Assembly: GCA_023053545.1 (NCBI GenBank)
Contig: JAKZAN010000005.1
Location: forward strand, 1,550,001-1,614,000
Direction: 5' to 3'
Source: Lepidurus packardi
Lineage: Eukaryota; Arthropoda; Branchiopoda; Notostraca; Triopsidae
DNA: 64,000 nt
The first letter of the stretch is position 1; each line of letters begins with the position of its first letter. A program made the translations under genes and the position numbers. The notes below the pieces were generated by a model. It did no database searches. It worked only from the letters and a program-made list of their open reading frames with translations, and was not told where the DNA came from. Shown here piece by piece: positions 4,868 through 54,763 of this stretch.

Positions 4868-5191
4868 CCACCTTCTGGGATATTGACTTCAGGACAAAAT
4901 CAAGTGTGGTCTACAATTTTTTTTTTTGCAAATCGGAGGTAAGAGATAAAATTCTGAAAAAAATTACTTTGGAACAAAGGAACGTGTCTAGTTATCCACA
5001 GTATAATCTGGTGATTTAATTTTTATTTAAACACTATACTTTTTACAAAAATGTCGTTTTAACTGTAAAATATATTGTACATTAACAGTTATTTCAGTGA
5101 AGAACATTTGGGACGGTTGCCTTGTTCAACATTCTACAAAATAGAAAAAGAACGGTTTAGTTACGTGAACGCATGGATTTGCAAAAATTAA

Positions 5192-5491
5192 AATTCTAAA
5201 AAACACCCGATTGCGAGCCGTAATGGACAAAAAGTGAAAGGTCGACCGGCCTCCCTACTTATTAACAATAGTGTTGCGTTAAAACATGCCGGTGTTGAAG
5301 AACATTTTTGGGAAAAACAAACGATCTGGCGGGGAACCAACCAACTTAAATTTACAGGCCCAACTAACGTGAAAAAGAACATCCATATATCACTCGCAAT
5401 TGAAATAGGCGAAAACCTTCAAACTTATCGGTGGTCAACGTCGAATAAGCGCGAGGCAACATTTCTGGAATTACGTGAACTTGGATTGTGA
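5192..5491 (+). CDS. Unrecognised open frame, 99 codons, no ATG
   Basis: Open from 5192 to the TGA at 5489-5491 with no in-frame ATG. The product reads as ordinary protein sequence (..KGRPASLLINNSVALKHAG.., ..FTGPTNVKKNIHISLAIE..) and ends RELGL. It may be an internal exon or a decayed remnant; no family was recognised. Copies of the GTG-to-stop part lie at 13349-13606, 21823-22080, 30505-30762, 38614-38871, 44542-44799 and 52641-52898, apparently unchanged. A donor-like GGAG/GTAAGAG lies upstream at 4935-4945. Confidence 0.3.
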   Translation, partial: NSKKHPIASRNGQKVKGRPASLLINNSVALKHAGVEEHFWEKQTIWRGTNQLKFTGPTNVKKNIHISLAIEIGENLQTYRWSTSNKREATFLELRELGL

Positions 5492-5987
5492 TCTTGCTGA
5501 CTGCTGGAAGCTGAACCGGATTCTACCTGGAAAGTTTCCCCCGCTTATGATGCAGTTATAATTCACGTTCTCTGACGGGAGTATGGCAGTTGTTAAGGTA
5601 ACCAATACATTTAATTAGCAATTAGTTGCAAGCAAAGGGAGTATACCTTAATTATAATTGTGTGACCCTAGAAAGACAATGGGAACTTGGAGCAACGCAT
5701 AGAGAAGCAAAGTAACGCAAAGCCCAGATTATCAATGACCTTACTAGACTTTGGAGCCGATTGGACATTCCTTTGCAGCACCAGACTGATTCTACAAGCA
5801 TTTAGAATGGTTTGAAAGCCTTGGACAGGAAAGCAGTAAGGTACCACCGCGTACTTGTACGAAATTGAGGCTTAATTTTGACCCGTCCGATCAAGATGTT
5901 TTAGCTTTACCAAACGACATTAACCATATGTCTTATCAAGTTCATTCACCATATGTCTTCGCAAGTTCGCTTTTCCTGTTTTTATCG

Positions 5988-6017
5988 TAAGAACAGGAAA
6001 CCATTTTCCTGTTCTTA
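5988..6017. repeat. Perfect 13-bp hairpin, loop CCAT
   Basis: TAAGAACAGGAAA and its exact reverse complement are separated by 4 bases, a strong stem-loop. It is present in every unit (for example at 14103-14132). It lies about 45 bp before the ATG of the LRR fragment. Confidence 0.85.
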
Positions 6018-6060
6018 TCATAAGAGCTTAGACGCAATACCCTGTGTAATATGATTTTTC

Positions 6061-6905
6061 ATGGCTATTTTTAATCAATTATTCAATCACAATTCACCCT
6101 TGTTCATTCGAAGCAATCCCTTTTTACTCGTGTTAGACGTTACTAGAACCAGCAAGTACGCTGTAAAGGAGACATGTTCTCTGAAAAGTCTTCATCTCGA
6201 GAACGTTTCACTGACGCTTATTGGATGGCTTCCATCAGCTGTTGAGAACAAAGAGTTCCTCCTTGCTTGGAGAAATGTGGCACGAAGCCTGGAGGAATTG
6301 ACCATCAATAGCCTCGAGTTTTCAGTCGAATTGTTCAGTTGGTTGATTATATCCATTACTTCATCCGCGGATTCTCTCCATCGGCACAAGCTATTGGAAG
6401 ACGCCAGACAGTTGCAAGGATGAGTCCTATGTTGTTTGCTCCGCTACATCGCTACTTTCCCAAAAGCCCCAAAAGCGGTCTGTTATTGACAGATCTTTAA
6501 TACTGGTTCCATTGCTTCGGGTTAAGGTCTCCAATCTAGAAATCACTTGTTGGAGAACTTAACCCGAAACAGTAGACAGTATTGCATCCGATTCGAGAAG
6601 CCCTTCAACGCTGTCCGAGGATGAAGATACTCAACCTGGGAATGTGTGGACTACCGTATCGTAGAGCCTCCACAAGTCCTAATCCTTCAACTCCATTATC
6701 CTCCACCGATATTGAAGCTTCGAAAAGCAGTAATATCTACTTGGATTTCATTAAAATAGTTTTAAGTGTTCCTAAGCTTCAAACTTTAACTTGTAAAACG
6801 TTCTTTATGGGCTGGAAAGAAATTGGTACATTTCATGCTATTGCAGACATCGCTAAAAAAAAAGGCCGGGAAAAGCAAACAACAATGAATGTAGTACTTT
6901 GTTAA
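6061..6905 (+). pseudogene. Decayed leucine-rich-repeat gene fragment (unit 1)
   Basis: Two open pieces in different frames: 6061-6423 (120 codons from ATG) and 6582-6905. Both carry LRR-like segments: LKSLHLENVSL, RSLEELTINSLEF, MKILNLGMCGL and PKLQTLTCKTFF, the pattern of cysteine-containing or F-box-type LRR proteins. A short piece between them in a third frame (..VSNLEITCW..) also fits. Stops and frame changes separate the pieces and no clean splice sites were seen, so a decayed host-gene fragment captured in the unit is the best reading; an intron-containing gene is possible. Confidence 0.45.
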
Positions 6906-7841
6906 CGCTGTGCGGCTTCTATGCGTACGTAGCAATGCATGGAATGCTTTGCAATTGTTCAGAGAACGAGGACTAAAATACCGCTTTAGACACGTAAGTG
7001 ATATGGTATACGACCTATGTAAATTGAATGTTTAATTCTCTGGAAAGATCAAATGGCAACTTAGGAAGCTTTTAATCACAAGATTTATATCCTAGTGAAT
7101 TAAAGTTAAGTACCACCTTCAACTTTCTTTTCATTAATACAACGCCAAAACATTATAGTTTCACCGGTTTTCTATTATCTCCAACTTCCTTAAAGCAAAA
7201 CCATAAACCAGCCCAAGAAAAGAATGGAGAAGAAAACCCTGTCCACAAAGTGGCTGGCCTGATCAACTTCCGTCGCCTACGCAAAGTGGCGCCAAGTGCC
7301 TAGAGAAGGCTGTAACTCCGCAAAAGACCTCAGCATTTAACAACGTGATTGGGCATGATAGAACAAGCGGTGTGTTCTAATGTACTTTATATTAACCTGT
7401 GAACTAATAAGCCACTTCACTAGTACGTATAAATATTACTATTATGCTTTATTTACTTACAGCTTCAACTGTCTTAAACATGGTGTGTTTAGAACCCGCA
7501 TTCTCGAACCGCGAACTCGGTTTCAGTTTGGTGCAGTTGCCGCGAACAGATGTTTGTTACCGGTGTTCTAGATCTTTTTAAACAAATTATATCACTCACA
7601 TAAATAGGCCATTATTGATATGATCGGCGTTGACCCTAAATTGGCAGTGATTTGATTGATTTTTTTCGGAAAATTTACAGATCTGATCCAGAACACTGCA
7701 TGTTACAGCATCTAGCAAAAATTATATAACCAAAATAAAAAAAAAAATCATCGTCAAAGATCTTTTTCATAGCATATTTTTTATTATTATTTTTTTTTTA
7801 GATTAAAAAATTAATATACAAAAAATACATCCAGCGAATAA

Positions 7842-8411
7842 ACGTTACAGGAATCGTTACAGGAATCGTTAAACGAAACGGCTCCACAAATCGTACATTA
7901 TTGCAAGTACCCCGTACCCGGACTTGCTCCAGCTGCCCCGGCTCCACCTCCAGCTGACCCGGCTCCACAAATCAAATATTATTGCAAGTACCCCGTACCC
8001 GGACTTGCTTGCAAGTACCCCGTACCCGGACTTGCTCCAGCTGCCCCGGCTCCACCTCCAGCTGCCATACAACAAAGAAATCTCGCAAGAAAAATTCGCT
8101 ATCGGGAGAACCAGCGCAAGAGACATGAAGAAAATAACAGGATAGCGTATTTATATCGCAATAATTTACTTCACATCAACTATCCACCACCAAATGTGCC
8201 TGTCCGGCCTCCTGCTGCCCCGACTTCGTATGCTGCTCGGGCTTCGTATGCTGCCCGGACTTCGTCTGCTGCCCCAGCTTCGTCTGCTGCCCCAGTTTCG
8301 CCTGCTGCCCCAACTTCGCCTGCTGCCCCAACTTCGCCTGCTGCCCAGGCTACGTCTGCTCATGAGGTTCCTCCCGCGGATCATGAGATTCCTCCCGCAG
8401 GGAATCCATGA
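7842..8411 (+). CDS. Pro/Ala-rich open frame (unit 1)
   Basis: 189 codons open between stops, with no in-frame ATG. Order: short QES repeats, three copies of KYPVPGLA, two APAAPAPPPA blocks, a basic segment (RNLARKIRYRENQRKRH), then six-residue TSxAAP-type repeats, ending IPPAGNP. The repeats are coding-like in this frame, and the 18-bp deletion in unit 6 keeps frame. A pyrimidine-rich tract ending in AG at 7800-7801, and CAG at 7850 and 7862, could be splice acceptors, so this may be a 3' exon of an unrecognised gene. The opposite strand is also open (RRSWGS repeats), which is expected from the repeat and not taken as a gene. Confidence 0.35.
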   Translation, partial: TLQESLQESLNETAPQIVHYCKYPVPGLAPAAPAPPPADPAPQIKYYCKYPVPGLACKYPVPGLAPAAPAPPPAAIQQRNLARKIRYRENQRKRHEENNRIAYLYRNNLLHINYPPPNVPVRPPAAPTSYAARASYAARTSSAAPASSAAPVSPAAPTSPAAPTSPAAQATSAHEVPPADHEIPPAGNP

Positions 8412-8693
8412 TTTACCGCTGGAAAAGGTGGAAAGTTCTTTCCCTTAATTTAATGTACTGATGAAATGATGATATGTAATGATGAAATATACAAATATTG
8501 TATTCTTTTTCGCAAAATGACATGGTAACAATATACCGTTTTAAAAAAACTACATAATTGTGTATCACAGCTCATTCTCATTCACGAAATTTCATTCTCA
8601 TCAAGAAATCATCAAGTTCATTCTCATTCAAGAAATCTGAATTTTGTACTATTTCCTTTTGGTTTTTTTTTCATAAAGAAATATTCAGTTAAG

Positions 8694-8711
8694 TGAGGGG
8701 CTGGGTATGAA
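8694..8711. repeat. 18-bp direct repeat, copy A
   Basis: TGAGGGGCTGGGTATGAA, repeated exactly at 10256-10273 in the same orientation, 1562 bp away. The two copies flank the 9.1-kb ORF region and the satellite block. On the minus strand both read as HTQPL in one frame. Confidence 0.7.
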
Positions 8712-9091
8712 CTTCCTTGATCTTGATCTTTGATGGTCTAATCTTATTATTATATTGCAAAAATCTTAAATGAAGTCTTCTTTTTTTTGTTTATCTGTAG
8801 TCTTTTTAGGGTTAGTATTAATTTATTAAGTTTTTATAGCTTATAAAGAGCGTAGCACTGAAGATGCTAAGGAAGTTTTAGAATTTGAAAACATTAAAAA
8901 ATTTAATTTTTTAACAAGAGTTAGCAGTTCTGTTTTTCCTTTTATTGTTTTCCTTTTATGTTATTAATTGATTATTAATGATCGGTTAGAATGTGTCAAG
9001 ATAATTTATTTTTACGATAATTTATTTTGTCATAAATATAACATATTGTGATTGTTGAATTTTAACGTGTATTTAAGTTTTACTACTATCA

Positions 9092-9256
9092 ATGGGGACT
9101 GGGTACAGATTTAAAAGTAAGGATACGGAAAGGTACGGTGAGGCGGCTCGGGTATCGGCTGCATATTGGCTTCGACGTCTGTATGGCTTCGGGCGGACTC
9201 GGTCCACGATGGCGGGGCGTTGTAAGCCACACATTTATTTACAACAACGAGTGTAA
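9092..9256 (+). CDS. Small ORF, 54 codons, unrecognised
   Basis: ATG at 9092 to the TAA at 9254-9256; basic product beginning MGTGYRFKSKDTERYGEAAR. A second frame across the same DNA stays open to 9332 and ends with a Cys-rich tail (YNTCHKKCGAPLLIYHC), so the true frame is uncertain. GC content is higher than in the flanks. It is repeated at 17207, 25681, 34365, 40292 and 48382, and kept even in the deleted unit 5. No family recognised. Confidence 0.3.
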   Translation: MGTGYRFKSKDTERYGEAARVSAAYWLRRLYGFGRTRSTMAGRCKPHIYLQQRV

Positions 9257-9436
9257 AGGTTCTGTTAAAGAACACCAATACAACACTTGTCATAAAAAAT
9301 GTGGGGCTCCTTTACTTATCTATCATTGTTAGACTACCTATGTAAGGATTAATTCCCAGTGCAATATTTTCCTTTTTACGGCATTATACACAGATAAAAG
9401 ATATATGCACATATAAACAGTAAAGCTACCCTCCAC

Positions 9437-10173
9437 ATTTCGACATTTGAAGAAAGCACAGTTAAGGCAATCTAATTTTGTCGTTTTTATCAATTATTAT
9501 AGTATATTATTTGCATGCAAAAAACCGAAAGGCATTTAAAGTACGCGAAACCAATACATAGATATAAACGAAATTTCGACATTTGAAGAAAGCACAGTTA
9601 AGGCAATCTAATTTTGTCGTTTTTATCAATTATTATAGTATATTATTTGCATGCAAAAAACCGAAAGGCATTTAAAGTACGCGAAATCAATACATAGATA
9701 TAAACGAAATTTCGACATTTGAAGAAAGCACAGTTAAGGCAATCTAATTTTGTCGTTTTTATCAATTATTATAGTATATTATTTGCATGCAAAAAACCGA
9801 AAGGCATTTAAAGTACGCGAAACCAATACATAGATATAAACGAAATTTCGACATTTGAAGAAAGCACAGTTAAGGCAATCCAATTTTGTCGTTTTTATCA
9901 ATTATTATAGTATATTATTTGCATGCAAAAAACCGAAAGGCATTTAAAGTACGCGAAACCAATACATAGATATAAACGAAATTTCGACATTTGAAGAAAG
10001 CACAGTTAAGGCAATCTAATTTTGTCGTTTTTATCAATTATTATAGTATATTATTTGCATGCAAAAAACCGAAAGGCATTTAAAGTACGCGAAACCAATA
10101 CATAGATATAAACGAAATTTCGACATTTGAAGAAAGCACAGTTAAGGCAATCTAATTTTGTCGTTTTTATCAA
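9437..10173. repeat. 136-bp satellite block (unit 1): 5 monomers plus partial
   Basis: Monomers starting at CGACATTTGAAG at 9441, 9577, 9713, 9849 and 9985, with a 53-bp partial from 10121. AT-rich; contains TTTGCATGCAAA, a 12-bp palindrome, in every monomer. Variants GAAACC/GAAATC and CTAATT/CCAATT mark individual monomers. The block ends at the palindrome GCTCAATTGAGC (10174-10185). Confidence 0.97.
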
Positions 10174-10255
10174 GCTCAATTGAGCAGCAGAAACGTCAAT
10201 CGAAATCGAAAGAACAGTCAATGTAGTCTAATTTTGTCATTTTTGTAAAGTTCAA

Positions 10256-10273
10256 TGAGGGGCTGGGTATGAA
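10256..10273. repeat. 18-bp direct repeat, copy B
   Basis: Exact second copy of 8694-8711. It lies inside the frame of the small minus-strand ORF next to the 283-codon ORF. Confidence 0.7.
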
Positions 10274-10372
10274 TTTTATCGTCCAGGTAATCAGAAAACC
10301 TAGGATCATTGACAATGTCTTGTTCATCGCGAAAAGCATCTTGAATATACTTAACATAGAAACGGGTATGTT

Positions 10373-10386
10373 CACCGTTCACGGTG
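10373..10386. repeat. 7-bp insertion forming CACCGT/ACGGTG inverted repeat
   Basis: Unit 1 (and unit 6 at about 49663-49676) reads CACCGTTCACGGTG where units 2-5 read CACCGTG. The extra 7 bp create an inverted repeat with a 2-base spacer and interrupt the 59-codon minus-strand ORF that is open in the other units. Confidence 0.9.
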
Positions 10387-10393
10387 TCCATAC

Positions 10394-11245
10394 CTAAGTC
10401 TCATTCTGTAATTTCCTCTCCAAAGCCCTGATTTTTTTGTGAGCTTTTATGAGTTCCGCATTCTTCCCTCTCAAAACAGCGTGTAACTGACAGGCCTTTT
10501 GCTTTTCACGATCATTGTTCTGCAAGCGTTTGCATAAAGCGAAATATTTTTTATACAAGTTGCGAAACTTTTGCCTGTAAGAGCAATTGTGATTTATACT
10601 TATTGCCTGCTTTGGAATCTGTCTATGGGAAGAGGGGTTAACAACCTGAGGCTGAGAAACCGCGTTTCTTCTCTGTGAAGAAGACTCAGCATCAGAGTCA
10701 GACAGAGCAAAATTATCCTCAATTAGCACAGCCGGCTGTGAAAGCTTACTACTACCACCATTACATGCAGATGCTTGTGGTTGTGTACAACTACTTCTAC
10801 TAGTACTATTAGTATTAGTGGTGCAGTTAAAAAATTGTAATGGCTGCCTCTTGAAAGTTTCGATTTTATCTAATTTTCCCAGACAACTGCTGTTTATCTT
10901 CATCAAGCGGAATAAATCCATCTTCAGCTTTTTAGCATGTCTAACTAATGTCAATGGCAAGTTTTCTTCACTAACGTTCAATCTAGTTCTAGAACTACCT
11001 TCCAGTGAAAAAATAGACACGATCCAAGTAAAAAAATATTTCTGCTTCGCATGCTTTGTTTTAACCTGCTCCAGAAAAAGATTATAAAGCTCCAGAACGA
11101 CTCCATTACTTAAAACAGGTTTCGGCCTGGCAATGGAAGTCCAAGTATCTAACGTCCTCAAGTGACTCTTTAATATCCCTATTTCATCACAGAACGGACC
11201 AATACGCTCATCATCATTAACATCAGAACTTGAACTTGAAGCCAT
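10394..11245 (-). CDS. 283-codon ORF of unknown family (unit 1)
   Basis: Starts at the ATG at 11245 (MASSSSSDVNDDERIG..); an in-frame extension upstream has no ATG. N-terminal half: helix-rich, with FFTWIVSIFSL at about residues 76-86. Middle: Ser/Asn-rich and acidic, low complexity (..SDSDAESSSQRR..). C-terminal 60 residues: strongly basic predicted coiled coil (YRQKFRNLYKKYFALCKRL.., ..KIRALERKLQNET). This resembles a small nuclear or DNA-associated protein, but no named domain was recognised. It is the longest open frame in the unit and is intact in five of six full copies. An AT-rich leader lies upstream. It could be a gene of the unit itself or of a captured mobile element. Confidence 0.6.
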   Translation of the reverse strand: MASSSSSDVNDDERIGPFCDEIGILKSHLRTLDTWTSIARPKPVLSNGVVLELYNLFLEQVKTKHAKQKYFFTWIVSIFSLEGSSRTRLNVSEENLPLTLVRHAKKLKMDLFRLMKINSSCLGKLDKIETFKRQPLQFFNCTTNTNSTSRSSCTQPQASACNGGSSKLSQPAVLIEDNFALSDSDAESSSQRRNAVSQPQVVNPSSHRQIPKQAISINHNCSYRQKFRNLYKKYFALCKRLQNNDREKQKACQLHAVLRGKNAELIKAHKKIRALERKLQNET

Positions 11246-11828
11246 ACCGCAATGCGATAATAAAAAATAAATAGGATTAGAATTAAGTTTTAATTTGACT
11301 TTGATGATAATTGATAAAATCAATTTCAATTAGTCAATCTTAACTTAATTTTGATACGATAATACTAGAAATATAAAATTGAGTTGAGTTTGACTCACAA
11401 TTTGGTTGTTTTTTTTGGTTGTCTTCGCTTCGTCTTCGAATTCGTTGACTGTGTCTGTGACGATCACACGTAACGTACTACGATGCCATGCGTACTTATA
11501 CGACTACGTACTACGAGGCGATGTTCACGCGTAGCGTAGGGTGCAGTTGTCACTCAAGCTCAAGCACAAACAAACACTGAACACATGGATTGGACAAAAA
11601 AATGATTTTAGCTGGGTGAAATTAAACTATATATATTAAAAAAAAAGCTCAGGCGTGAGCTAATGCTCGCTGCCGTTTCTGTACAAGTTTTCAGTCTTTT
11701 TTTTTGGTTTTTTGTCTTCGTTGTGACGTTCACACGTAGGGTGTTGTCTCAAGCAAAAACACTGACCAAATGGATTGGACCAAAAATAGTTTAGCTTCGC
11801 TTAGCAGGGTGAAATTAAACTATCTTTC
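11246..11828. other. AT-rich upstream region of the 283-codon ORF
   Basis: No ORF of substance. Contains a short GC-richer patch with CGTAC/GTACG motifs (11465-11545) and poly-T runs. It lies 5' of the minus-strand ORF, so any promoter would be here; none is identifiable by eye. One base at about 11732 (C in units 1 and 6, G in units 2-5) separates the two unit classes. Confidence 0.4.
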
Positions 11829-11866
11829 AATAGAAAGCCAGATATAAAAATATCTGGCTTTCTATT
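11829..11866. repeat. Perfect 16-bp hairpin, loop TAAAAA
   Basis: AATAGAAAGCCAGATA is followed after 6 bases by its exact reverse complement. Present in each full unit at 20303, 28985, 37094, 43022 and 51120. Strength and conservation suggest a structural role or simply recent homogenisation. Confidence 0.9.
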
Positions 11867-12296
11867 CAGTCGAGCCTTGAGGTCCAGATCAAGATTACGA
11901 ATCCCCAAGGCGCAAACGGCTTATTTCCACGATATCCAACGGTTTTCAAAACGATCACTCTCGTTTCCTTATACTGTAACTGTACCATGGGGTGACGACC
12001 AACCTCCCACCAAACCTTTTCCTAATCCTTAGATTTCAAATCCTTAGATCATAATCCTAATCCTTAGATTTTAGAATTCAATCACATACCACAACAAGTG
12101 TAAATTACCCAAAAATAAGAGAAAACATGTAAATTTACTAATTATTAGGCAATGAAACTTAGAATTTGTCGAAAATGATGGCAAGTGAATAACGAATAGT
12201 AAAGGCAACGCATAGACATTTTTATACAAATACACAATGCAAACGTGAAACGAGTCAGAGAAGGAGAAAAAAAATAATTGGCTAAATGGCCGAGAA

Positions 12297-12369
12297 GCAA
12301 TGGCCGAAAAGCCAGCTTGCAAGTGTTTCAACTTTTCCGTTTTGCAAATCGAAGATAGCGTTTATAAAT
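12297..12369. repeat. Diverged internal duplication, copy A
   Basis: About 73 bp resembling 12509-12580: both begin GCAATGGCCGA, share GCCAGCTT, TCAACTTTT and TCGAAGATAGC, and end TTATAAA. An old duplication inside the unit; the interval holds nothing else recognised. Confidence 0.6.
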
Positions 12370-12508
12370 ATAGGAAAAATACCCATAGCTAGCTCAGATA
12401 TTCTTCTTCCAGTATCAAATGTTCATTTGGTATATCGGGCTAAGAATATTTATTTTTAAAAAATCATCCGCCCTAGCTGACCAGCGCAACACGGCTGTTG
12501 AGCCTACA

Positions 12509-12580
12509 GCAATGGCCGAGAAGCCAGCTTTCAACTTTTTCAACTTTTCAGTTTAATAATTCGAAGATAGCAGTTATAAA
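12509..12580. repeat. Diverged internal duplication, copy B
   Basis: Partner of 12297-12369, about 212 bp downstream. The divergence between A and B within a unit is far larger than between units, so this duplication predates the array. Confidence 0.6.
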
Positions 12581-14175
12581 ATAGAGCTATCTACTAAGGG
12601 CCTTGGTAGATATAGCTCTGATTATTTGCTTCAATAATAAAGTGCTAGTTCGAAATCGCGAATTAATTATATTTAAAACATTCTAACATTAACAGCCGTG
12701 TATAATAACGCACAGTACAGCTGCTGGGAAACCTCTCTCAATTTTGTATTTTCGTAAGAAATGTTTTGCTAAAAAAAACAATCAACTAAAACACTTACGC
12801 CTTAGAATATAAATGCAATAAGGCAGACCATTGTAAATTATACAATAGAAGTCGCTTTTTTATGCCCACCGCTGTGCTGCTTACCATTAACATTGATTAA
12901 GCGGCACTTGTTCGGCAACGTAGGAAAGGGAAGGATAAGCTACCTGCAGGCAAAGTGGGCGAACAAGATGGCCGAACAAGCCCCACCTTCTGGGATATTG
13001 ACTTCAGGACAAAATCAAGTGTGGTCTACAATTTTTTTTTTTGCAAATCGGAGGTAAGAGATAAAATTCTGAAAAAAATTACTTTGGAACAAAGGAACGT
13101 GTCTAGTTATCCACAGTATAATCTGGTGATTTAATTTTTATTTAAACACTATACTTTTTACAAAAATGTCGTTTTAACTGTAAAATATATTGTACATTAA
13201 CAGTTATTTCAGTGAAGAACATTTGGGACGGTTGCCTTGTTCAACATTCTACAAAATAGAAAAAGAACGGTTTAGTTACGTGAACGCATGGATTTGCAAA
13301 AATTAAAATTCTAAAAAACACCCGATTGCGAGCCGTAATGGACAAAAAGTGAAAGGTCGACCGGCCTCCCTACTTATTAACAATAGTGTTGCGTTAAAAC
13401 ATGCCGGTGTTGAAGAACATTTTTGGGAAAAACAAACGATCTGGCGGGGAACCAACCAACTTAAATTTACAGGCCCAACTAACGTGAAAAAGAACATCCA
13501 TATATCACTCGCAATTGAAATAGGCGAAAACCTTCAAACTTATCGGTGGTCAACGTCGAATAAGCGCGAGGCAACATTTCTGGAATTACGTGAACTTGGA
13601 TTGTGATCTTGCTGACTGCTGGAAGCTGAACCGGATTCTACCTGGAAAGTTTCCCCCGCTTATGATGCAGTTATAATTCACGTTCTCTGACGGGAGTATG
13701 GCAGTTGTTAAGGTAACCAATACATTTAATTAGCAATTAGTTGCAAGCAAAGGGAGTATACCTTAATTATAATTGTGTGACCCTAGAAAGACAATGGGAA
13801 CTTGGAGCAACGCATAGAGAAGCAAAGTAACGCAAAGCCCAGATTATCAATGACCTTACTAGACTTTGGAGCCGATTGGACATTCCTTTGCAGCACCAGA
13901 CTGATTCTACAAGCATTTAGAATGGTTTGAAAGCCTTGGACAGGAAAGCAGTAAGGTACCACCGCGTACTTGTACGAAATTGAGGCTTAATTTTGACCCG
14001 TCCGATCAAGATGTTTTAGCTTTACCAAACGACATTAACCATATGTCTTATCAAGTTCATTCACCATATGTCTTCGCAAGTTCGCTTTTCCTGTTTTTAT
14101 CGTAAGAACAGGAAACCATTTTCCTGTTCTTATCATAAGAGCTTAGACGCAATACCCTGTGTAATATGATTTTTC

Positions 14176-18654: not shown

Positions 18655-18698
18655 GCTCAATTGAGCAGCAGAAACGTCAATCGAAATCGAAAGAACAG

Positions 18699-35446: not shown

Positions 35447-35490
35447 GCTCAATTGAGCAGCAGAAACGTCAATCGAAATCGAAAGAACAG

Positions 35491-35670
35491 TCAATGTAGT
35501 CTAATTTTGTCATTTTTGTAAAGTTCAATGAGGGGCTGGGTATGAATTTTATCGTCCAGGTAATCAGAAAACCTAGGATCATTGACAATGTCTTGTTCAT
35601 CGCGAAAAGCATCTTGAATATACTTAACATAGAAACGGGTATGTTCACCGTGTCCATACCTAAGTCTCAT
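35491..35670 (-). CDS. 59-codon ORF (unit 4)
   Basis: Copy of 18699-18878, open. Confidence 0.4.
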   Translation of the reverse strand: MRLRYGHGEHTRFYVKYIQDAFRDEQDIVNDPRFSDYLDDKIHTQPLIELYKNDKIRLH

Positions 35671-36510: not shown

Positions 36511-39440
36511 ACCGCAATGCGATAATAAAAAATAAATAGGATTAGAATTAAGTTTTAATTTGACTTTGATGATAATTGATAAAATCAATTTCAATTAGTC
36601 AATCTTAACTTAATTTTGATACGATAATACTAGAAATATAAAATTGAGTTGAGTTTGACTCACAATTTGGTTGTTTTTTTTGGTTGTCTTCGCTTCGTCT
36701 TCGAATTCGTTGACTGTGTCTGTGACGATCACACGTAACGTACTACGATGCCATGCGTACTTATACGACTACGTACTACGAGGCGATGTTCACGCGTAGC
36801 GTAGGGTGCAGTTGTCACTCAAGCTCAAGCACAAACAAACACTGAACACATGGATTGGACAAAAAAATGATTTTAGCTGGGTGAAATTAAACTATATATA
36901 TTAAAAAAAAAGCTCAGGCGTGAGCTAATGCTCGCTGCCGTTTCTGTACAAGTTTTCAGTCTTTTTTTTTGGTTTTTTGTCTTCGTTGTGACGTTGACAC
37001 GTAGGGTGTTGTCTCAAGCAAAAACACTGACCAAATGGATTGGACCAAAAATAGTTTAGCTTCGCTTAGCAGGGTGAAATTAAACTATCTTTCAATAGAA
37101 AGCCAGATATAAAAATATCTGGCTTTCTATTCAGTCGAGCCTTGAGGTCCAGATCAAGATTACGAATCCCCAAGGCGCAAACGGCTTATTTCCACGATAT
37201 CCAACGGTTTTCAAAACGATCACTCTCGTTTCCTTATACTGTAACTGTACCATGGGGTGACGACCAACCTCCCACCAAACCTTTTCCTAATCCTTAGATT
37301 TCAAATCCTTAGATCATAATCCTAATCCTTAGATTTTAGAATTCAATCACATACCACAACAAGTGTAAATTACCCAAAAATAAGAGAAAACATGTAAATT
37401 TACTAATTATTAGGCAATGAAACTTAGAATTTGTCGAAAATGATGGCAAGTGAATAACGAATAGTAAAGGCAACGCATAGACATTTTTATACAAATACAC
37501 AATGCAAACGTGAAACGAGTCAGAGAAGGAGAAAAAAAATAATTGGCTAAATGGCCGAGAAGCAATGGCCGAAAAGCCAGCTTGCAAGTGTTTCAACTTT
37601 TCCGTTTTGCAAATCGAAGATAGCGTTTATAAATATAGGAAAAATACCCATAGCTAGCTCAGATATTCTTCTTCCAGTATCAAATGTTCATTTGGTATAT
37701 CGGGCTAAGAATATTTATTTTTAAAAAATCATCCGCCCTAGCTGACCAGCGCAACACGGCTGTTGAGCCTACAGCAATGGCCGAGAAGCCAGCTTTCAAC
37801 TTTTTCAACTTTTCAGTTTAATAATTCGAAGATAGCAGTTATAAAATAGAGCTATCTACTAAGGGCCTTGGTAGATATAGCTCTGATTATTTGCTTCAAT
37901 AATAAAGTGCTAGTTCGAAATCGCGAATTAATTATATTTAAAACATTCTAACATTAACAGCCGTGTATAATAACGCACAGTACAGCTGCTGGGAAACCTC
38001 TCTCAATTTTGTATTTTCGTAAGAAATGTTTTGCTAAAAAAAACAATCAACTAAAACACTTACGCCTTAGAATATAAATGCAATAAGGCAGACCATTGTA
38101 AATTATACAATAGAAGTCGCTTTTTTATGCCCACCGCTGTGCTGCTTACCATTAACATTGATTAAGCGGCACTTGTTCGGCAACGTAGGAAAGGGAAGGA
38201 TAAGCTACCTGCAGGCAAAGTGGGCGAACAAGATGGCCGAACAAGCCCCACCTTCTGGGATATTGACTTCAGGACAAAATCAAGTGTGGTCTACAATTTT
38301 TTTTTTTGCAAATCGGAGGTAAGAGATAAAATTCTGAAAAAAATTACTTTGGAACAAAGGAACGTGTCTAGTTATCCACAGTATAATCTGGTGATTTAAT
38401 TTTTATTTAAACACTATACTTTTTACAAAAATGTCGTTTTAACTGTAAAATATATTGTACATTAACAGTTATTTCAGTGAAGAACATTTGGGACGGTTGC
38501 CTTGTTCAACATTCTACAAAATAGAAAAAGAACGGTTTAGTTACGTGAACGCATGGATTTGCAAAAATTAAAATTCTAAAAAACACCCGATTGCGAGCCG
38601 TAATGGACAAAAAGTGAAAGGTCGACCGGCCTCCCTACTTATTAACAATAGTGTTGCGTTAAAACATGCCGGTGTTGAAGAACATTTTTGGGAAAAACAA
38701 ACGATCTGGCGGGGAACCAACCAACTTAAATTTACAGGCCCAACTAACGTGAAAAAGAACATCCATATATCACTCGCAATTGAAATAGGCGAAAACCTTC
38801 AAACTTATCGGTGGTCAACGTCGAATAAGCGCGAGGCAACATTTCTGGAATTACGTGAACTTGGATTGTGATCTTGCTGACTGCTGGAAGCTGAACCGGA
38901 TTCTACCTGGAAAGTTTCCCCCGCTTATGATGCAGTTATAATTCACGTTCTCTGACGGGAGTATGGCAGTTGTTAAGGTAACCAATACATTTAATTAGCA
39001 ATTAGTTGCAAGCAAAGGGAGTATACCTTAATTATAATTGTGTGACCCTAGAAAGACAATGGGAACTTGGAGCAACGCATAGAGAAGCAAAGTAACGCAA
39101 AGCCCAGATTATCAATGACCTTACTAGACTTTGGAGCCGATTGGACATTCCTTTGCAGCACCAGACTGATTCTACAAGCATTTAGAATGGTTTGAAAGCC
39201 TTGGACAGGAAAGCAGTAAGGTACCACCGCGTACTTGTACGAAATTGAGGCTTAATTTTGACCCGTCCGATCAAGATGTTTTAGCTTTACCAAACGACAT
39301 TAACCATATGTCTTATCAAGTTCATTCACCATATGTCTTCGCAAGTTCGCTTTTCCTGTTTTTATCGTAAGAACAGGAAACCATTTTCCTGTTCTTATCA
39401 TAAGAGCTTAGACGCAATACCCTGTGTAATATGATTTTTC

Positions 39441-40222
39441 ATGGCTATTTTTAATCAATTATTCAATCACAATTCACCCTTGTTCATTCGAAGCAATCCC
39501 TTTTTACTCGTGTTAGACGTTACTAGAACCAGCAAGTACGCTGTAAAGGAGACATGTTCTCTGAAAAGTCTTCATCTCGAGAACGTTTCACTGACGCTTA
39601 TTGGATGGCTTCCATCAGCTGTTGAGAACAAAGAGTTCCTCCTTGCTTGGAGAAATGTGGCACGAAGCCTGGAGGAATTGACCATCAATAGCCTCGAGTT
39701 TTCAGTCGAATTGTTCAGTTGGTTGATTATATCCATTACTTCATCCGCGGATTCTCTCCATCGGCACAAGCTATTGGAAGACGCCAGACAGTTGCAAGGA
39801 TGAGTCCTATGTTGTTTGCTCCGCTACATCGCTACTTTCCCAAAAGCCCCAAAAGCGGTCTGTTATTGACAGATCTTTAATACTGGTTCCATTGCTTCGG
39901 GTTAAGGTCTCCAATCTAGAAATCACTTGTTGGAGAACTTAACCCGAAACAGTAGACAGTATTGCATCCGATTCGAGAAGCCCTTCAACGCTGTCCGAGG
40001 ATGAAGATACTCAACCTGGGAATGTGTGGACTACCGTATCGTAGAGCCTCCACAAGTCCTAATCCTTCAACTCCATTATCCTCCACCGATATTGAAGCTT
40101 CGAAAAGCAGTAATATCTACTTGGATTTCATTAAAATAGTTTTAAGTGTTCCTAAGCTTCAAACTTTAACTTGTAAAACGTTCTTTATGGGCTGGAAAGA
40201 AATTGGTACATTTAACATATAA
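39441..40222 (+). pseudogene. LRR gene fragment cut by deletion (unit 5)
   Basis: First piece (39441-39803) as in other units; the second (39962-40222) is cut short by the 2.2-kb deletion at 40213 and runs a few codons into the filler. Confidence 0.45.
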
Positions 40223-40235
40223 CATATATTGGTAC
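40214..40235. other. 22-bp templated filler at deletion junction
   Basis: The junction between unit positions equivalent to 6833 and 9036 holds 22 extra bases. They contain TTGGTAC, copied from the left flank, and ATAACATAT, copied from the right flank. Such flanking-templated inserts are typical of polymerase theta-mediated end joining. Confidence 0.75.
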
Positions 40236-40636
40236 ATATAACATATTGTGATTGTTGAATTTTAACGTGTATTTAAGTTTTACTACTATCAATGGGGACT
40301 GGGTACAGATTTAAAAGTAAGGATACGGAAAGGTACGGTGAGGCGGCTCGGGTATCGGCTGCATATTGGCTTCGACGTCTGTATGGCTTCGGGCGGACTC
40401 GGTCCACGATGGCGGGGCGTTGTAAGCCACACATTTATTTACAACAACGAGTGTAAAGGTTCTGTTAAAGAACACCAATACAACACTTGTCATAAAAAAT
40501 GTGGGGCTCCTTTACTTATCTATCATTGTTAGACTACCTATGTAAGGATTAATTCCCAGTGCAATATTTTCCTTTTTACGGCATTATACACAGATAAAAG
40601 ATATATGCACATATAAACAGTAAAGCTACCCTCCAC

Positions 40637-41373
40637 ATTTCGACATTTGAAGAAAGCACAGTTAAGGCAATCTAATTTTGTCGTTTTTATCAATTATTAT
40701 ATTATATTATTTGCATGCAAAAAACCGAAAGGCATTTAAAGTACGCGAAACCAATACATAGATATAAACGAAATTTCGACATTTGAAGAAAGCACAGTTA
40801 AGGCAATCTAATTTTGTCGTTTTTATCAATTATTATAGTATATTATTTGCATGCAAAAAACCGAAAGGCATTTAAAGTACGCGAAATCAATACATAGATA
40901 TAAACGAAATTTCGACATTTGAAGAAAGCACAGTTAAGGCAATCTAATTTTGTCGTTTTTATCAATTATAATAGTATATTATTTGCATGCAAAAAACCGA
41001 AAGGCATTTAAAGTACGCGAAACCAATACATAGATATAAACGAAATTTCGACATTTGAAGAAAGCACAGTTAAGGCAATCCAATTTTGTCGTTTTTATCA
41101 ATTATTATAGTATATTATTTGCATGCAAAAAACCGAAAGGCATTTAAAGTACGCGAAACCAATACATAGATATAAACGAAATTTCGACATTTGAAGAAAG
41201 CACAGTTAAGGCAATCTAATTTTGTCGTTTTTATCAATTATTATAGTATATTATTTGCATGCAAAAAACCGAAAGGCATTTAAAGTACGCGAAACCAATA
41301 CATAGATATAAACGAAATTTCGACATTTGAAGAAAGCACAGTTAAGGCAATCTAATTTTGTCGTTTTTATCAA
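40637..41373. repeat. 136-bp satellite block (unit 5): 5 monomers plus partial
   Basis: Starts at 40641. Carries two point variants, TTATATTATATT in monomer 1 and AATTATAATAG in monomer 3, found again only in unit 6. Confidence 0.97.
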
Positions 41374-41417
41374 GCTCAATTGAGCAGCAGAAACGTCAAT
41401 CGAAATCGAAAGAACAG

Positions 41418-41597
41418 TCAATGTAGTCTAATTTTGTCATTTTTGTAAAGTTCAATGAGGGGCTGGGTATGAATTTTATCGTCCAGGTAATCAGAAAACC
41501 TAGGATCATTGACAATGTCTTGTTCATCGCGAAAAGCATCTTGAATATACTTAACATAGAAACGGGTATGTTCACCGTGTCCATACCTAAGTCTCAT
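41418..41597 (-). CDS. 59-codon ORF (unit 5)
   Basis: Copy of 18699-18878, open. Confidence 0.4.
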   Translation of the reverse strand: MRLRYGHGEHTRFYVKYIQDAFRDEQDIVNDPRFSDYLDDKIHTQPLIELYKNDKIRLH

Positions 41598-42438
41598 TCT
41601 GTAATTTCCTCTCCAAAGCCCTGATTTTTTTGTGAGCTTTTATGAGTTCCGCATTCTTCCCTCTCAAAACAGCGTGTAACTGACAGGCCTTTTGCTTTTC
41701 ACGATCATTGTTCTGCAAGCGTTTGCATAAAGCGAAATATTTTTTATACAAGTTGCGAAACTTTTGCCTGTAAGAGCAATTGTGATTTATACTTATTGCC
41801 TGCTTTGGAATCTGTCTATGGGAAGAGGGGTTAACAACCTGAGGCTGAGAAACCGCGTTTCTTCTCTGTGAAGAAGACTCAGCATCAGAGTCAGACAGAG
41901 CAAAATTATCCTCAATTAGCACAGCCGGCTGTGAAAGCTTACTACTACCACCATTACATGCAGATGCTTGTGGTTGTGTACAACTACTTCTACTAGTACT
42001 ATTAGTATTAGTGGTGCAGTTAAAAAATTGTAATGGCTGCCTCTTGAAAGTTTCGATTTTATCTAATTTTCCCAGACAACTGCTGTTTATCTTCATCAAG
42101 CGGAATAAATCCATCTTCAGCTTTTTAGCATGTCTAACTAATGTCAATGGCAAGTTTTCTTCACTAACGTTCAATCTAGTTCTAGAACTACCTTCCAGTG
42201 AAAAAATAGACACGATCCAAGTAAAAAAATATTTCTGCTTCGCATGCTTTGTTTTAACCTGCTCCAGAAAAAGATTATAAAGCTCCAGAACGACTCCATT
42301 ACTTAAAACAGGTTTCGGCCTGGCAATGGAAGTCCAAGTATCTAACGTCCTCAAGTGACTCTTTAATATCCCTATTTCATCACAGAACGGACCAATACGC
42401 TCATCATCATTAACATCAGAACTTGAACTTGAAGCCAT
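41587..42438 (-). CDS. 283-codon ORF of unknown family (unit 5)
   Basis: Intact copy of 10394-11245; identical predicted protein, retained although the neighbouring 2.2 kb is deleted. Confidence 0.6.
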   Translation of the reverse strand: MASSSSSDVNDDERIGPFCDEIGILKSHLRTLDTWTSIARPKPVLSNGVVLELYNLFLEQVKTKHAKQKYFFTWIVSIFSLEGSSRTRLNVSEENLPLTLVRHAKKLKMDLFRLMKINSSCLGKLDKIETFKRQPLQFFNCTTNTNSTSRSSCTQPQASACNGGSSKLSQPAVLIEDNFALSDSDAESSSQRRNAVSQPQVVNPSSHRQIPKQAISINHNCSYRQKFRNLYKKYFALCKRLQNNDREKQKACQLHAVLRGKNAELIKAHKKIRALERKLQNET

Positions 42439-45368
42439 ACCGCAATGCGATAATAAAAAATAAATAGGATTAGAATTAAGTTTTAATTTGACTTTGATGA
42501 TAATTGATAAAATCAATTTCAATTAGTCAATCTTAACTTAATTTTGATACGATAATACTAGAAATATAAAATTGAGTTGAGTTTGACTCACAATTTGGTT
42601 GTTTTTTTTGGTTGTCTTCGCTTCGTCTTCGAATTCGTTGACTGTGTCTGTGACGATCACACGTAACGTACTACGATGCCATGCGTACTTATACGACTAC
42701 GTACTACGAGGCGATGTTCACGCGTAGCGTAGGGTGCAGTTGTCACTCAAGCTCAAGCACAAACAAACACTGAACACATGGATTGGACAAAAAAATGATT
42801 TTAGCTGGGTGAAATTAAACTATATATATTAAAAAAAAAGCTCAGGCGTGAGCTAATGCTCGCTGCCGTTTCTGTACAAGTTTTCAGTCTTTTTTTTTGG
42901 TTTTTTGTCTTCGTTGTGACGTTGACACGTAGGGTGTTGTCTCAAGCAAAAACACTGACCAAATGGATTGGACCAAAAATAGTTTAGCTTCGCTTAGCAG
43001 GGTGAAATTAAACTATCTTTCAATAGAAAGCCAGATATAAAAATATCTGGCTTTCTATTCAGTCGAGCCTTGAGGTCCAGATCAAGATTACGAATCCCCA
43101 AGGCGCAAACGGCTTATTTCCACGATATCCAACGGTTTTCAAAACGATCACTCTCGTTTCCTTATACTGTAACTGTACCATGGGGTGACGACCAACCTCC
43201 CACCAAACCTTTTCCTAATCCTTAGATTTCAAATCCTTAGATCATAATCCTAATCCTTAGATTTTAGAATTCAATCACATACCACAACAAGTGTAAATTA
43301 CCCAAAAATAAGAGAAAACATGTAAATTTACTAATTATTAGGCAATGAAACTTAGAATTTGTCGAAAATGATGGCAAGTGAATAACGAATAGTAAAGGCA
43401 ACGCATAGACATTTTTATACAAATACACAATGCAAACGTGAAACGAGTCAGAGAAGGAGAAAAAAAATAATTGGCTAAATGGCCGAGAAGCAATGGCCGA
43501 AAAGCCAGCTTGCAAGTGTTTCAACTTTTCCGTTTTGCAAATCGAAGATAGCGTTTATAAATATAGGAAAAATACCCATAGCTAGCTCAGATATTCTTCT
43601 TCCAGTATCAAATGTTCATTTGGTATATCGGGCTAAGAATATTTATTTTTAAAAAATCATCCGCCCTAGCTGACCAGCGCAACACGGCTGTTGAGCCTAC
43701 AGCAATGGCCGAGAAGCCAGCTTTCAACTTTTTCAACTTTTCAGTTTAATAATTCGAAGATAGCAGTTATAAAATAGAGCTATCTACTAAGGGCCTTGGT
43801 AGATATAGCTCTGATTATTTGCTTCAATAATAAAGTGCTAGTTCGAAATCGCGAATTAATTATATTTAAAACATTCTAACATTAACAGCCGTGTATAATA
43901 ACGCACAGTACAGCTGCTGGGAAACCTCTCTCAATTTTGTATTTTCGTAAGAAATGTTTTGCTAAAAAAAACAATCAACTAAAACACTTACGCCTTAGAA
44001 TATAAATGCAATAAGGCAGACCATTGTAAATTATACAATAGAAGTCGCTTTTTTATGCCCACCGCTGTGCTGCTTACCATTAACATTGATTAAGCGGCAC
44101 TTGTTCGGCAACGTAGGAAAGGGAAGGATAAGCTACCTGCAGGCAAAGTGGGCGAACAAGATGGCCGAACAAGCCCCACCTTCTGGGATATTGACTTCAG
44201 GACAAAATCAAGTGTGGTCTACAATTTTTTTTTTTGCAAATCGGAGGTAAGAGATAAAATTCTGAAAAAAATTACTTTGGAACAAAGGAACGTGTCTAGT
44301 TATCCACAGTATAATCTGGTGATTTAATTTTTATTTAAACACTATACTTTTTACAAAAATGTCGTTTTAACTGTAAAATATATTGTACATTAACAGTTAT
44401 TTCAGTGAAGAACATTTGGGACGGTTGCCTTGTTCAACATTCTACAAAATAGAAAAAGAACGGTTTAGTTACGTGAACGCATGGATTTGCAAAAATTAAA
44501 ATTCTAAAAAACACCCGATTGCGAGCCGTAATGGACAAAAAGTGAAAGGTCGACCGGCCTCCCTACTTATTAACAATAGTGTTGCGTTAAAACATGCCGG
44601 TGTTGAAGAACATTTTTGGGAAAAACAAACGATCTGGCGGGGAACCAACCAACTTAAATTTACAGGCCCAACTAACGTGAAAAAGAACATCCATATATCA
44701 CTCGCAATTGAAATAGGCGAAAACCTTCAAACTTATCGGTGGTCAACGTCGAATAAGCGCGAGGCAACATTTCTGGAATTACGTGAACTTGGATTGTGAT
44801 CTTGCTGACTGCTGGAAGCTGAACCGGATTCTACCTGGAAAGTTTCCCCCGCTTATGATGCAGTTATAATTCACGTTCTCTGACGGGAGTATGGCAGTTG
44901 TTAAGGTAACCAATACATTTAATTAGCAATTAGTTGCAAGCAAAGGGAGTATACCTTAATTATAATTGTGTGACCCTAGAAAGACAATGGGAACTTGGAG
45001 CAACGCATAGAGAAGCAAAGTAACGCAAAGCCCAGATTATCAATGACCTTACTAGACTTTGGAGCCGATTGGACATTCCTTTGCAGCACCAGACTGATTC
45101 TACAAGCATTTAGAATGGTTTGAAAGCCTTGGACAGGAAAGCAGTAAGGTACCACCGCGTACTTGTACGAAATTGAGGCTTAATTTTGACCCGTCCGATC
45201 AAGATGTTTTAGCTTTACCAAACGACATTAACCATATGTCTTATCAAGTTCATTCACCATATGTCTTCGCAAGTTCGCTTTTCCTGTTTTTATCGTAAGA
45301 ACAGGAAACCATTTTCCTGTTCTTATCATAAGAGCTTAGACGCAATACCCTGTGTAATATGATTTTTC

Positions 45369-49463: not shown

Positions 49464-49683
49464 GCTCAATTGAGCAGCAGAAACGTCAATCGAAATCGAA
49501 AGAACAGTCAATGTAGTCTAATTTTGTCATTTTTGTAAAGTTCAATGAGGGGCTGGGTATGAATTTTATCGTCCAGGTAATCAGAAAACCTAGGATCATT
49601 GACAATGTCTTGTTCATCGCGAAAAGCATCTTGAATATACTTAACATAGAAACGGGTATGTTCACCGTTCACGGTGTCCATAC

Positions 49684-50535: not shown

Positions 50536-52273
50536 ACCGCAATGCGATAATAAAAAATAAATAGGATTAGAATTAAGTTTTAATTTGACTTTGATGATAA
50601 TTGATAAAATCAATTTCAATTAGTCAATCTTAACTTAATTTTGATACGATAATACTAGAAATATAAAATTGAGTTGAGTTTGACTCACAATTTGGTTGTT
50701 TTTTTTGGTTGTCTTCGCTTCGTCTTCGAATTCGTTGACTGTGTCTGTGACGATCACACGTAACGTACTACGATGCCATGCGTACTTATACGACTACGTA
50801 CTACGAGGCGATGTTCACGCGTAGCGTAGGGTGCAGTTGTCACTCAAGCTCAAGCACAAACAAACACTGAACACATGGATTGGACAAAAAAATGATTTTA
50901 GCTGGGTGAAATTAAACTATATATATTAAAAAAAAAGCTCAGGCGTGAGCTAATGCTCGCTGCCGTTTCTGTACAAGTTTTCAGTCTTTTTTTTTTGGTT
51001 TTTTGTCTTCGTTGTGACGTTCACACGTAGGGTGTTGTCTCAAGCAAAAACACTGACCAAATGGATTGGACCAAAAATAGTTTAGCTTCGCTTAGCAGGG
51101 TGAAATTAAACTATCTTTCAATAGAAAGCCAGATATAAAAATATCTGGCTTTCTATTCAGTCGAGCCTTGAGGTCCAGATCAAGGTTACGAATCCCCAAG
51201 GCGCAAACGGCTTATTTCCACGATATCCAACGGTTTTCAAAACGATCACTCTCGTTTCCTTATACTGTAACTGTACCATGGGGTGACGACCAACCTCCCA
51301 CCAAACCTTTTCCTAATCCTTAGATTTCAAATCCTTAGATCATAATCCTAATCCTTAGATTTTAGAATTCAATCACATACCACAACAAGTGTAAATTACC
51401 CAAAAATAAGAGAAAACATGTAAATTTACTAATTATTAGGCAATGAAACTTAGAATTTGTCGAAAATGATGGCAAGTGAATAACGAATAGTAAAGGCAAC
51501 GCATAGACATTTTTATACAAATACACAATGCAAACGTGAAACGAGTCAGAGAAGGAGAAAAAAAATAATTGGCTAAATGGCCGAGAAGCAATGGCCGAAA
51601 AGCCAGCTTGCAAGTGTTTCAACTTTTCCGTTTTGCAAATCGAAGATAGCGTTTATAAATATAGGAAAAATACCCATAGCTAGCTCAGATATTCTTCTTC
51701 CAGTATCAAATGTTCATTTGGTATATCGGGCTAAGAATATTTATTTTTAAAAAATCATCCGCCCTAGCTGACCAGCGCAACACGGCTGTTGAGCCTACAG
51801 CAATGGCCGAGAAGCCAGCTTTCAACTTTTTCAACTTTTCAGTTTAATAATTCGAAGATAGCAGTTATAAAATAGAGCTATCTACTAAGGGCCTTGGTAG
51901 ATATAGCTCTGATTATTTGCTTCAATAATAAAGTGCTAGTTCGAAATCGCGAATTAATTATATTTAAAACATTCTAACATTAACAGCCGTGTATAATAAC
52001 GCACAGTACAGCTGCTGGGAAACCTCTCTCAATTTTGTATTTTCGTAAGAAATGTTTTGCTAAAAAAAACAATCAACTAAAACACTTACGCCTTAGAATA
52101 TAAATGCAATAAGGCAGACCATTGTAAATTATACAATAGAAGTCGCTTTTTTATGCCCACCGCTGTGCTGCTTACCATTAACATTGATTAAGCGGCACTT
52201 GTTCGGCAACGTAGGAAAGGGAAGGATAAGCTACCTGCAGGCAAAGTGGGCGAACAAGATGGCCGAACAAGCC

Positions 52274-54763
52274 CCACCTTCTGGGATATTGACTTCAGGA
52301 CAAAATCAAGTGTGGTCTACAATTTTTTTTTTTTGCAAATCGGAGGTAAGAGATAAAATTCTGAAAAAAATTACTTTGGAACAAAGGAACGTGTCTAGTT
52401 ATCCACAGTATAATCTGGTGATTTAATTTTTATTTAAACACTATACTTTTTACAAAAATGTCGTTTTAACTGTAAAATATATTGTACATTAACAGTTATT
52501 TCAGTGAAGAACATTTGTGACGGTTGCCTTGTTCAACATTCTACAAAATAGAAAAAGAACGGTTTAGTTACGTGAACGCATGGATTTGCAAAAATTAAAA
52601 TTCTAAAAAACACCCGATTGCGAGCCGTAATGGACAAAAAGTGAAAGGTCGACCGGCCTCCCTACTTATTAACAATAGTGTTGCGTTAAAACATGCCGGT
52701 GTTGAAGAACATTTTTGGGAAAAACAAACGATCTGGCGGGGAACCAACCAACTTAAATTTACAGGCCCAACTAACGTGAAAAAGAACATCCATATATCAC
52801 TCGCAATTGAAATAGGCGAAAACCTTCAAACTTATCGGTGGTCAACGTCGAATAAGCGCGAGGCAACATTTCTGGAATTACGTGAACTTGGATTGTGATC
52901 TTGCTGACTGCTGGAAGCTGAACCGGATTCTACCTGGAAAGTTTCCCCCGCTTATGATGCAGTTATAATTCACGTTCTCTGACGGGAGTATGGCAGTTGT
53001 TAAGGTAACCAATACATTTAATTAGCAATTAGTTGCAAGCAAAGGGAGTATACCTTAATTATAATTGTGTGACCCTAGAAAGACAATGGGAACTTGGAGC
53101 AACGCATAGAGAAGCAAAGTAACGCAAAGCCCAGATTATCAATGACCTTACTAGACTTTGGAGCCGATTGGACATTCCTTTGCAGCACCAGACTGATTCT
53201 ACAAGCATTTAGAATGGTTTGAAAGCCTTGGACAGGAAAGCAGTAAGGTACCACCGCGTACTTGTACGAAATTGAGGCTTAATTTTGACCCGTCCGATCA
53301 AGATGTTTTAGCTTTACCAAACGACATTAACCATATGTCTTATCAAGTTCATTCACCATATGTCTTCGCAAGTTCGCTTTTCCTGTTTTTATCGTAAGAA
53401 CAGGAAACCATTTTCCTGTTCTTATCATAAGAGCTTAGACGCAATACCCTGTGTAATATGATTTTTCATGGCTATTTTTAATCAATTATTCAATCACAAT
53501 TCACCCTTGTTCATTCGAAGCAATCCCTTTTTACTCGTGTTAGACGTTACTAGAACCAGCAAGTACGCTGTAAAGGAGACATGTTCTCTGAAAAGTCTTC
53601 ATCTCGAGAACGTTTCACTGACGCTTATTGGATGGCTTCCATCAGCTGTTGAGAACAAAGAGTTCCTCCTTGCTTGGAGAAATGTGGCACGAAGCCTGGA
53701 GGAATTGACCATCAATAGCCTCGAGTTTTCAGTCGAATTGTTCAGTTGGTTGATTATATCCATTACTTCATCCGCGGATTCTCTCCATCGGCACAAGCTA
53801 TTGGAAGACGCCAGACAGTTGCAAGGATGAGTCCTATGTTGTTTGCTCCGCTACATCGCTACTTTCCCAAAAGCCCCAAAAGCGGTCTGTTATTGACAGA
53901 TCTTTAATACTGGTTCCATTGCTTCGGGTTAAGGTCTCCAATCTAGAAATCACTTGTTGGAGAACTTAACCCGAAACAGTAGACAGTATTGCATCCGATT
54001 CGAGAAGCCCTTCAACGCTGTCCGAGGATGAAGATACTCAACCTGGGAATGTGTGGACTACCGTATCGTAGAGCCTCCACAAGTCCTAATCCTTCAACTC
54101 CATTATCCTCCACCGATATTGAAGCTTCGAAAAGCAGTAATATCTACTTGGATTTCATTAAAATAGTTTTAAGTGTTCCTAAGCTTCAAACTTTAACTTG
54201 TAAAACGTTCTTTATGGGCTGGAAAGAAATTGGTACATTTCATGCTATTGCAGACATCGCTAAAAAAAAAGGCCGGGAAAAGCAAACAACAATGAATGTA
54301 GTACTTTGTTAACGCTGTGCGGCTTCTATGCGTACGTAGCAATGCATGGAATGCTTTGCAATTGTTCAGAGAACGAGGACTAAAATACCGCTTTAGACAC
54401 GTAAGTGATATGGTATACGACCTATGTAAATTGAATGTTTAATTCTCTGGAAAGATCAAATGGCAACTTAGGAAGCTTTTAATCACAAGATTTATATCCT
54501 AGTGAATTAAAGTTAAGTACCACCTTCAACTTTCTTTTCATTAATACAAAGCCAAAACATTATAGTTTCACCGGTTTTCTATTATCTCCAACTTCCTTAA
54601 AGCAAAACCATAAACCAGCCCAAGAAAAGAATGGAGAAGAAAACCCTGTCCACAAAGTGGCTGGCCTGATCAACTTCCGTCGCCTACGCAACGTGGCGGC
54701 AAGTGCCTAGAGAAGGCTGTAACTCCGCAGAAGACCTCAGCATTTAGCAACGTGATTGGGCAT
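52274..54763. repeat. Giant tandem unit 7, partial (2490 bp)
   Basis: Partial last copy. It follows the unit for about 2.49 kb and then stops matching after ..GATTGGGCAT, where single-copy DNA begins. The last 230 bp hold several differences (for example AAAGCC for AACGCC near 54548, AACGTGGCGGCAAG near 54690), a higher density than elsewhere in the array, as expected at an array edge. Confidence 0.95.
53468..54312 (+). pseudogene. LRR gene fragment (unit 7)
   Basis: Copy of 6061-6905 (pieces 53468-53830, 53989-54312) in the partial last unit. Confidence 0.45.

Follow-up and report, generated by a model that had tools for sequence, protein, structure and literature searches.

A stretch of 64,000 bp of the Lepidurus packardi genome (C4:1550001-1614000, hereafter the window), taken from a genome assembly of 108.6 Mb in 344 contigs, carries a tandem array of nearly identical units of several kilobases. 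The question raised by this locus is what such a unit consists of and how it came to be multiplied. Our reading, to which we give a probability of roughly three in four, is that the array, which is known from one assembly alone, is a tandem segmental amplification that was seeded by a DNA transposon and proceeded by recombination rather than by jumping. The locus illustrates how a macrosatellite can begin: one stretch of DNA preserves the native flank, the joint of the first duplication, the scar of a later deletion and an edge that is less homogenised. It also shows that finding the transposon ends in other copies can explain a giant repeat classed as "unknown".

Layout of the array

Self-repeat positions and alignment of the units place the whole array at 4868-54763 (+ strand). 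Direct repeats of the 8115-bp first unit (u1) start at 4868, 12983, 21457, 30139, 38248, 44176 and 52274, and the array stops at 54763; the lengths of u1 to u7 are 8115, 8474, 8682, 8109, 5928, 8098 and 2490 bp, respectively. A sequence-only reading of the window had described seven near-identical units, and its tandem array is borne out in this assembly, where seven copies lie head to tail, although these are six long units (one of which, u5, has a 2.2-kb deletion) and one partial unit rather than seven full ones. The arithmetic by which it had derived the unit lengths from a basic unit of 8108 bp holds as well, and its indels were all confirmed: u1 differs from the base by +7, u4 by +2 and -1, u5 by -2202 and +22, and u6 by +7, -18 and +1 bp, while u3 is longer by 574 bp (4 x 136 + 30). 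The excess of u2 (+366) is additional sequence of the same 136-bp satellite, including shorter variants. This satellite lies within the transposon part of the unit (9437-10173 in u1, + strand), and its length varies between units. With the satellite excluded, any two of u1 to u6 are separated by 0-8 substitutions in 5166-7347 aligned sites, in agreement with the near identity that had been claimed, and u7 differs from u1 by six substitutions in 2489 sites and a 1-base insertion. Macrosatellites are characterised by nearly identical direct tandem units of several kilobases, which were found here, and by copy numbers that vary between individuals.

The array lacks its left end, since position 4868 borders a 100-N gap (4768-4867) and is no repeat boundary. 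If the array continues into this gap, the units counted here are a minimum. The repeats do begin at 4868, which had been taken as the start of a unit, but the natural joint lies within the unit defined in this way, between 7356 and 7360, where it encloses the nucleotides GAT. To the left of the gap, positions 1-4767 contain pieces of Gypsy-like LTR retrotransposons and a 230-bp inverted repeat (246-475 and 2324-2553).

The reliance of the array on assembly is the main doubt about it. One or two real units could have been multiplied by the assembler, or haplotypes could have been strung together, and the 100-N gap at the left side and the difficulty of assembling near-identical 8-kb repeats are both compatible with such an artefact. 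We regard it as unlikely, however, given that the long units are individually marked by their satellite lengths, small indels and the 2.2-kb deletion, and that the right edge of the array goes cleanly into single-copy DNA.

The unit and its transposon

A dispersed DNA transposon has contributed approximately 74% of the unit (6013 of 8115 bp) in the form of one copy, and the rest is host flank. We searched the window's own genome with four unit segments (6000-8000, 10174-12982, 8000-9436 and 4868-6300; the satellite at 9437-10173 was omitted), for which all match counts are lower bounds, and found that 7360-13372 belongs to a dispersed family. Comparison with other copies delimits one transposon copy of 6013 bp at 7360-13372 (+ strand), which is without its left end and left terminal inverted repeat (TIR), retains its right TIR and straddles the unit border that had been drawn at 12983. 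A TIR search located the right 16-bp TIR of this copy at 13357-13372 (+ strand) and the same TIR at 5242, 21831, 30513, 38622, 44550 and 52649, and detected no left TIR in the window. The host DNA that was copied together with the transposon measures 2099 bp (5258-7356, + strand; genome search and ORF comparison). Among the matches listed, it is near-identical solely in the array, and elsewhere the matches are partial and 74-91% identical. The repeated sequence combines a DNA transposon copy that is truncated on the left and internally deleted with the 2.1 kb of host DNA that flanks this copy on the right. The sequence-only reading had overlooked this composition, in which transposon predominates and host flank makes up the remainder, as well as the further arrays of the same family elsewhere. 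Its description of the unit as neither rDNA nor histone-like is upheld for rDNA by an Rfam scan of the window, which gave 0 matches at gathering thresholds, and for histones it extends to the four unit ORFs scanned by Pfam, which gave no histone match.

The host part holds a piece of a gene family in each long unit, cut short in u5. The array copy of this gene is split into 122 + 109 codons, whereas three fetched paralogues (L035, L036 and L037), the main blocks of which are 75-82% identical to the array copy, keep open stretches of 293, 285 and 291 codons. The array copy is probably dead. The gene pieces are leucine-rich by eye, and Pfam found nothing in them. Selection could in principle lie behind the array, which would then have been multiplied for its spacer-borne host gene or to supply silencing RNAs; this would accord with the presence of a gene-family piece in every long unit (shortened in u5) and with transposon sequence that could feed such RNAs. 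A gene copy in pieces of 122 and 109 codons, as against 285-293 open codons in the three paralogues, argues to the contrary, and we consider selection of this kind very unlikely. Amplification of a host gene as the cause of the array is likewise disfavoured, because the copy in the spacer is broken.

The ORF that had been reported as unrecognised is present in the unit and corresponds to the N-terminal part of a 1229-aa transposase. This 311-aa ORF (10394-11329, - strand) shares 89% identity with residues 35-298 of a 1229-aa ORF that is stop-free in three identical tandem copies with a period of 5565 bp (C5:10490-10507 kb; L023, L024). The unit pieces match L023:1735-1925 and L023:4543-5611, and the 2617 bp between them are absent from the unit; with the middle of the gene deleted, a remnant of its 3' end (10196-10398, - strand; match to L023) is found directly beside the N-terminal part. 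In u4, the 1-bp deletion is a frameshift that breaks even the 311-aa ORF. The transposase has no Pfam match and no significant sequence match in PDB, and no relatives were confirmed in viral contigs or prokaryote genomes. The same genome contains a second transposase family with a protein that is ~30% identical and with several near-equal copies (C33, C46, C1:3216759, C5:9626213, C8, C16 and C5:10390628). The motifs SDGTTK, MSDR, CG(I/L)(H/Y) and TNVGVER are common to both families, the third of them being CGIH in L015, L025, L026 and L027 of the first family and CGIY in L023. We infer that these motifs may represent the D, D, CxxH and E of a DDE transposase from the group that comprises, in the portion of PMC3706591 available, hAT, Kolobok, P, MuDR and Dada.

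Terminal inverted repeats and a target-site duplication (TSD) of fixed length, two of the features by which DNA transposons are recognised, were both found in the family. Complete copies carry the 16-bp inverted repeat TAGGGAGGCCGGTCGA, which is perfect except in L028 and L051, each with one mismatch in its left TIR, and the fetched copies that retain the right end all stop at the same base. A 7-bp TSD is present in nine of the ten end pairs examined (L009, L010, L011, L012, L013, L014, L016/L017, L025 and C6:174679-211288), a count that took in end pairs and omitted copies with a single readable end. In the tenth pair (C3:2146191-2166282; L027, L028), the target sites do not match, and this pair may be two separate copies. 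Complete copies range from 2261 bp to 14.5 kb, or up to 36.6 kb if the C6 end pair is one copy, and they are set apart by deletions and tandem repeats within them and by nested elements. We also observed, nested in transposon copies, an ORF for a DDE_1/CENP-B-type transposase (L020:4964-6490) and an ORF that resembles a non-LTR reverse transcriptase by eye (L016:1291-4044).

Founding joint and proposed amplification

In u1, u2, u3, u4 and u6, the host part ends in GGGCAT and is followed by the 3-nt filler GAT (7357-7359 in u1, + strand; deleted in u5) and then by transposon sequence from AGAACAAGCGG. In the last, partial unit u7 (52274-54763, + strand), no transposon sequence is entered; after GGGCAT, the host part runs on as single-copy DNA, which begins at 54764. 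Seven other copies of the transposon contain both the left TIR and the point at which the window copy starts, and the distance between the two is 330 bp in six of them and 312 bp in one, which indicates that the left TIR was lost from the window copy. Together with the continuation of u7, this left-end comparison establishes the extent of the duplicated segment, which started within the left end of the element and reached 2.1 kb past its right end. At the position where u1, u2, u3, u4 and u6 cross into transposon, u7 passes into single-copy DNA, and this position marks where the founding duplication was joined.

End joining is indicated by the 3-nt filler at the joint and by the absence of homology visible there. 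The deletion of 2.2 kb in u5 (38248-44175, + strand; repeat positions and unit comparison) also has a filler, which resembles both its sides and by eye repeats words from each of them. Fillers that repeat words of both sides are known for polymerase-theta end joining. Beside the right end of the transposon, the target-site copy would be CTTATTA. When the predicted left junction was searched for with at most one mismatch allowed, no site appeared on C4 and a sole site on C1, with one mismatch, which we rejected as the left junction of the array because it is a right end. The missing left junction on C4 fits the 100-N gap, without proving it. At the right edge of the array, a promoter scan detected nothing; kinase-domain matches (Pfam) occur to the right of the array at 57748-58224, a locus that the sequence-only reading had named "wit".

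We propose that a break inside the left end of an inserted element would have been joined, via the 3-nt filler, to a break 2.1 kb past the right end, giving a first dimer. Sister chromatids could have been the partners of this join, or it could have passed through an excised circle; both routes are equally compatible with what is seen here. The 8-kb repeats would then have gained copies by unequal exchange and gene conversion, which would also have homogenised the inner units, and the length of the internal satellite would change faster than the rest of the unit. The units themselves would be passive and without gene function. For the left end of the array, in the gap, this model predicts host DNA, the target-site copy and a complete left end of the transposon.

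Such exchange and conversion would account for how alike the units are, for the changes in satellite length and for the divergent edge. Four of the six substitutions in u7 fall within 54692-54747, at the array edge (chance of such a cluster ~1e-5, for an interval chosen afterwards), and a divergent edge of u7 is as expected if exchange fades at the end of the array. The earlier suggestion of very recent amplification or strong homogenisation is consistent with the near identity, which both alternatives fit equally.

The 8.1-kb unit could instead transpose and multiply by itself, with a transposase acting on each unit, as might be supposed of a sequence that is mostly transposon and carries a right TIR. 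With neither a left TIR in the window nor the core of the transposase remaining, a single unit would not be expected to move alone; moreover, a single host joint is shared by the five units that keep it, and the host part has no near-identical copy outside the array among the matches listed. The absent left TIR and the one common host joint disfavour the unit as a transposing whole, and we consider this explanation extremely improbable.

Sister arrays and known systems

Larger copies of the transposon are arranged head to tail on C20 (249 kb), on C21 (125 kb) and at C6:706-724 kb. Among the junctions listed, all 11 right-to-left end junctions that were read have 0-1 nt between the ends (T in nine, A in one and none in one) and are without the 7-bp duplication. 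These abutting ends are located on C20 (L029, L031, L042, L043, L045-L048), C21 (L032, L049) and C6 (L044), with some copies reversed, and the transposase matches on C20 and C21 extend over the N-terminal part only. One C20 copy contains, close to its left end, a 400-aa ORF (L029:1447-2646) with a weak match to OTU proteases (E 0.036, below the Pfam cut-off). Abutting ends could result from insertion beside an existing end or from circles with joined ends, and the junctions on C20, C21 and C6 fit either amplified and re-inserted transposon circles or an element that targets its own end when it inserts. Sister arrays of this kind make the question of transposon circles testable. More tentatively, and with considerable doubt, we suggest that the family could be an unclassified lineage (16-bp TIR, 7-bp TSD, internal satellites and a DDE/CxxH-like transposase) whose copies repeatedly become giant tandem arrays, the array in the window being a second, truncated outcome.

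A segmental tandem array seeded by a transposon is of an already known kind; the transposon lineage and the abutting arrays are less ordinary. In the open-access literature searched, we recognised no description of the array or of the transposon family, and only general models of transposon-derived repeats. As far as the available text on the human DXZ4 macrosatellite goes (PMC3081327), the array resembles it in its highly alike, head-to-tail units of several kilobases, but differs in having a transposon copy and its flank as the unit and a visible founding joint. Tandem repeats derived from transposons and duplicated by unequal crossing-over are treated in a review (PMC6947457). In the part of it available, as here, a transposon copy enters a tandem repeat that then expands, whereas the unit here includes 2.1 kb of host DNA and its first joint looks like end joining, not like exchange between two transposon copies.

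The excerpts available from PMC3706591 describe Dada elements with a TSD of 6-7 bp and a DDE transposase with a D/CxxH motif; Dada-U6 and Dada-U1 are without TIRs, Dada sits in small RNA genes, which are multicopy, and a tandem Dada pair without extra nucleotides is reported. The family here is similar in its 7-bp TSD, DDE/CxxH-like motifs and abutting copies, but has 16-bp TIRs, and the tested copies lie outside RNA genes. In the 11 element loci scanned, there were 0 tRNAs and one Rfam match, a U5 gene in L010 that is ~760 bp away from the element. With these TIRs and this genomic context, we rejected an assignment to Dada.

The TIRs of hAT elements begin with TAGGG. This start and the CxxH motif are common to hAT and the family here, which differs in its 7-bp TSD and in a transposase without Pfam match. 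The excerpts of PMC3706591 give a TSD of about 8 bp for hAT and P and name hAT for the CxxH motif; identity of the target sites over 8 bp was false in seven of seven copies tested, and membership in hAT was also rejected.

Another tandem array, with a spacing of ~3721 bp and at least 10 matches, was found at C5:11141-11175 kb (L021, L022). It has the Ala/Pro-rich ORF region at 8035-8510 of the window in common, and an ORF at L021:3145-3918 matches Pfam Flavi_glycoprot (E 5e-32).
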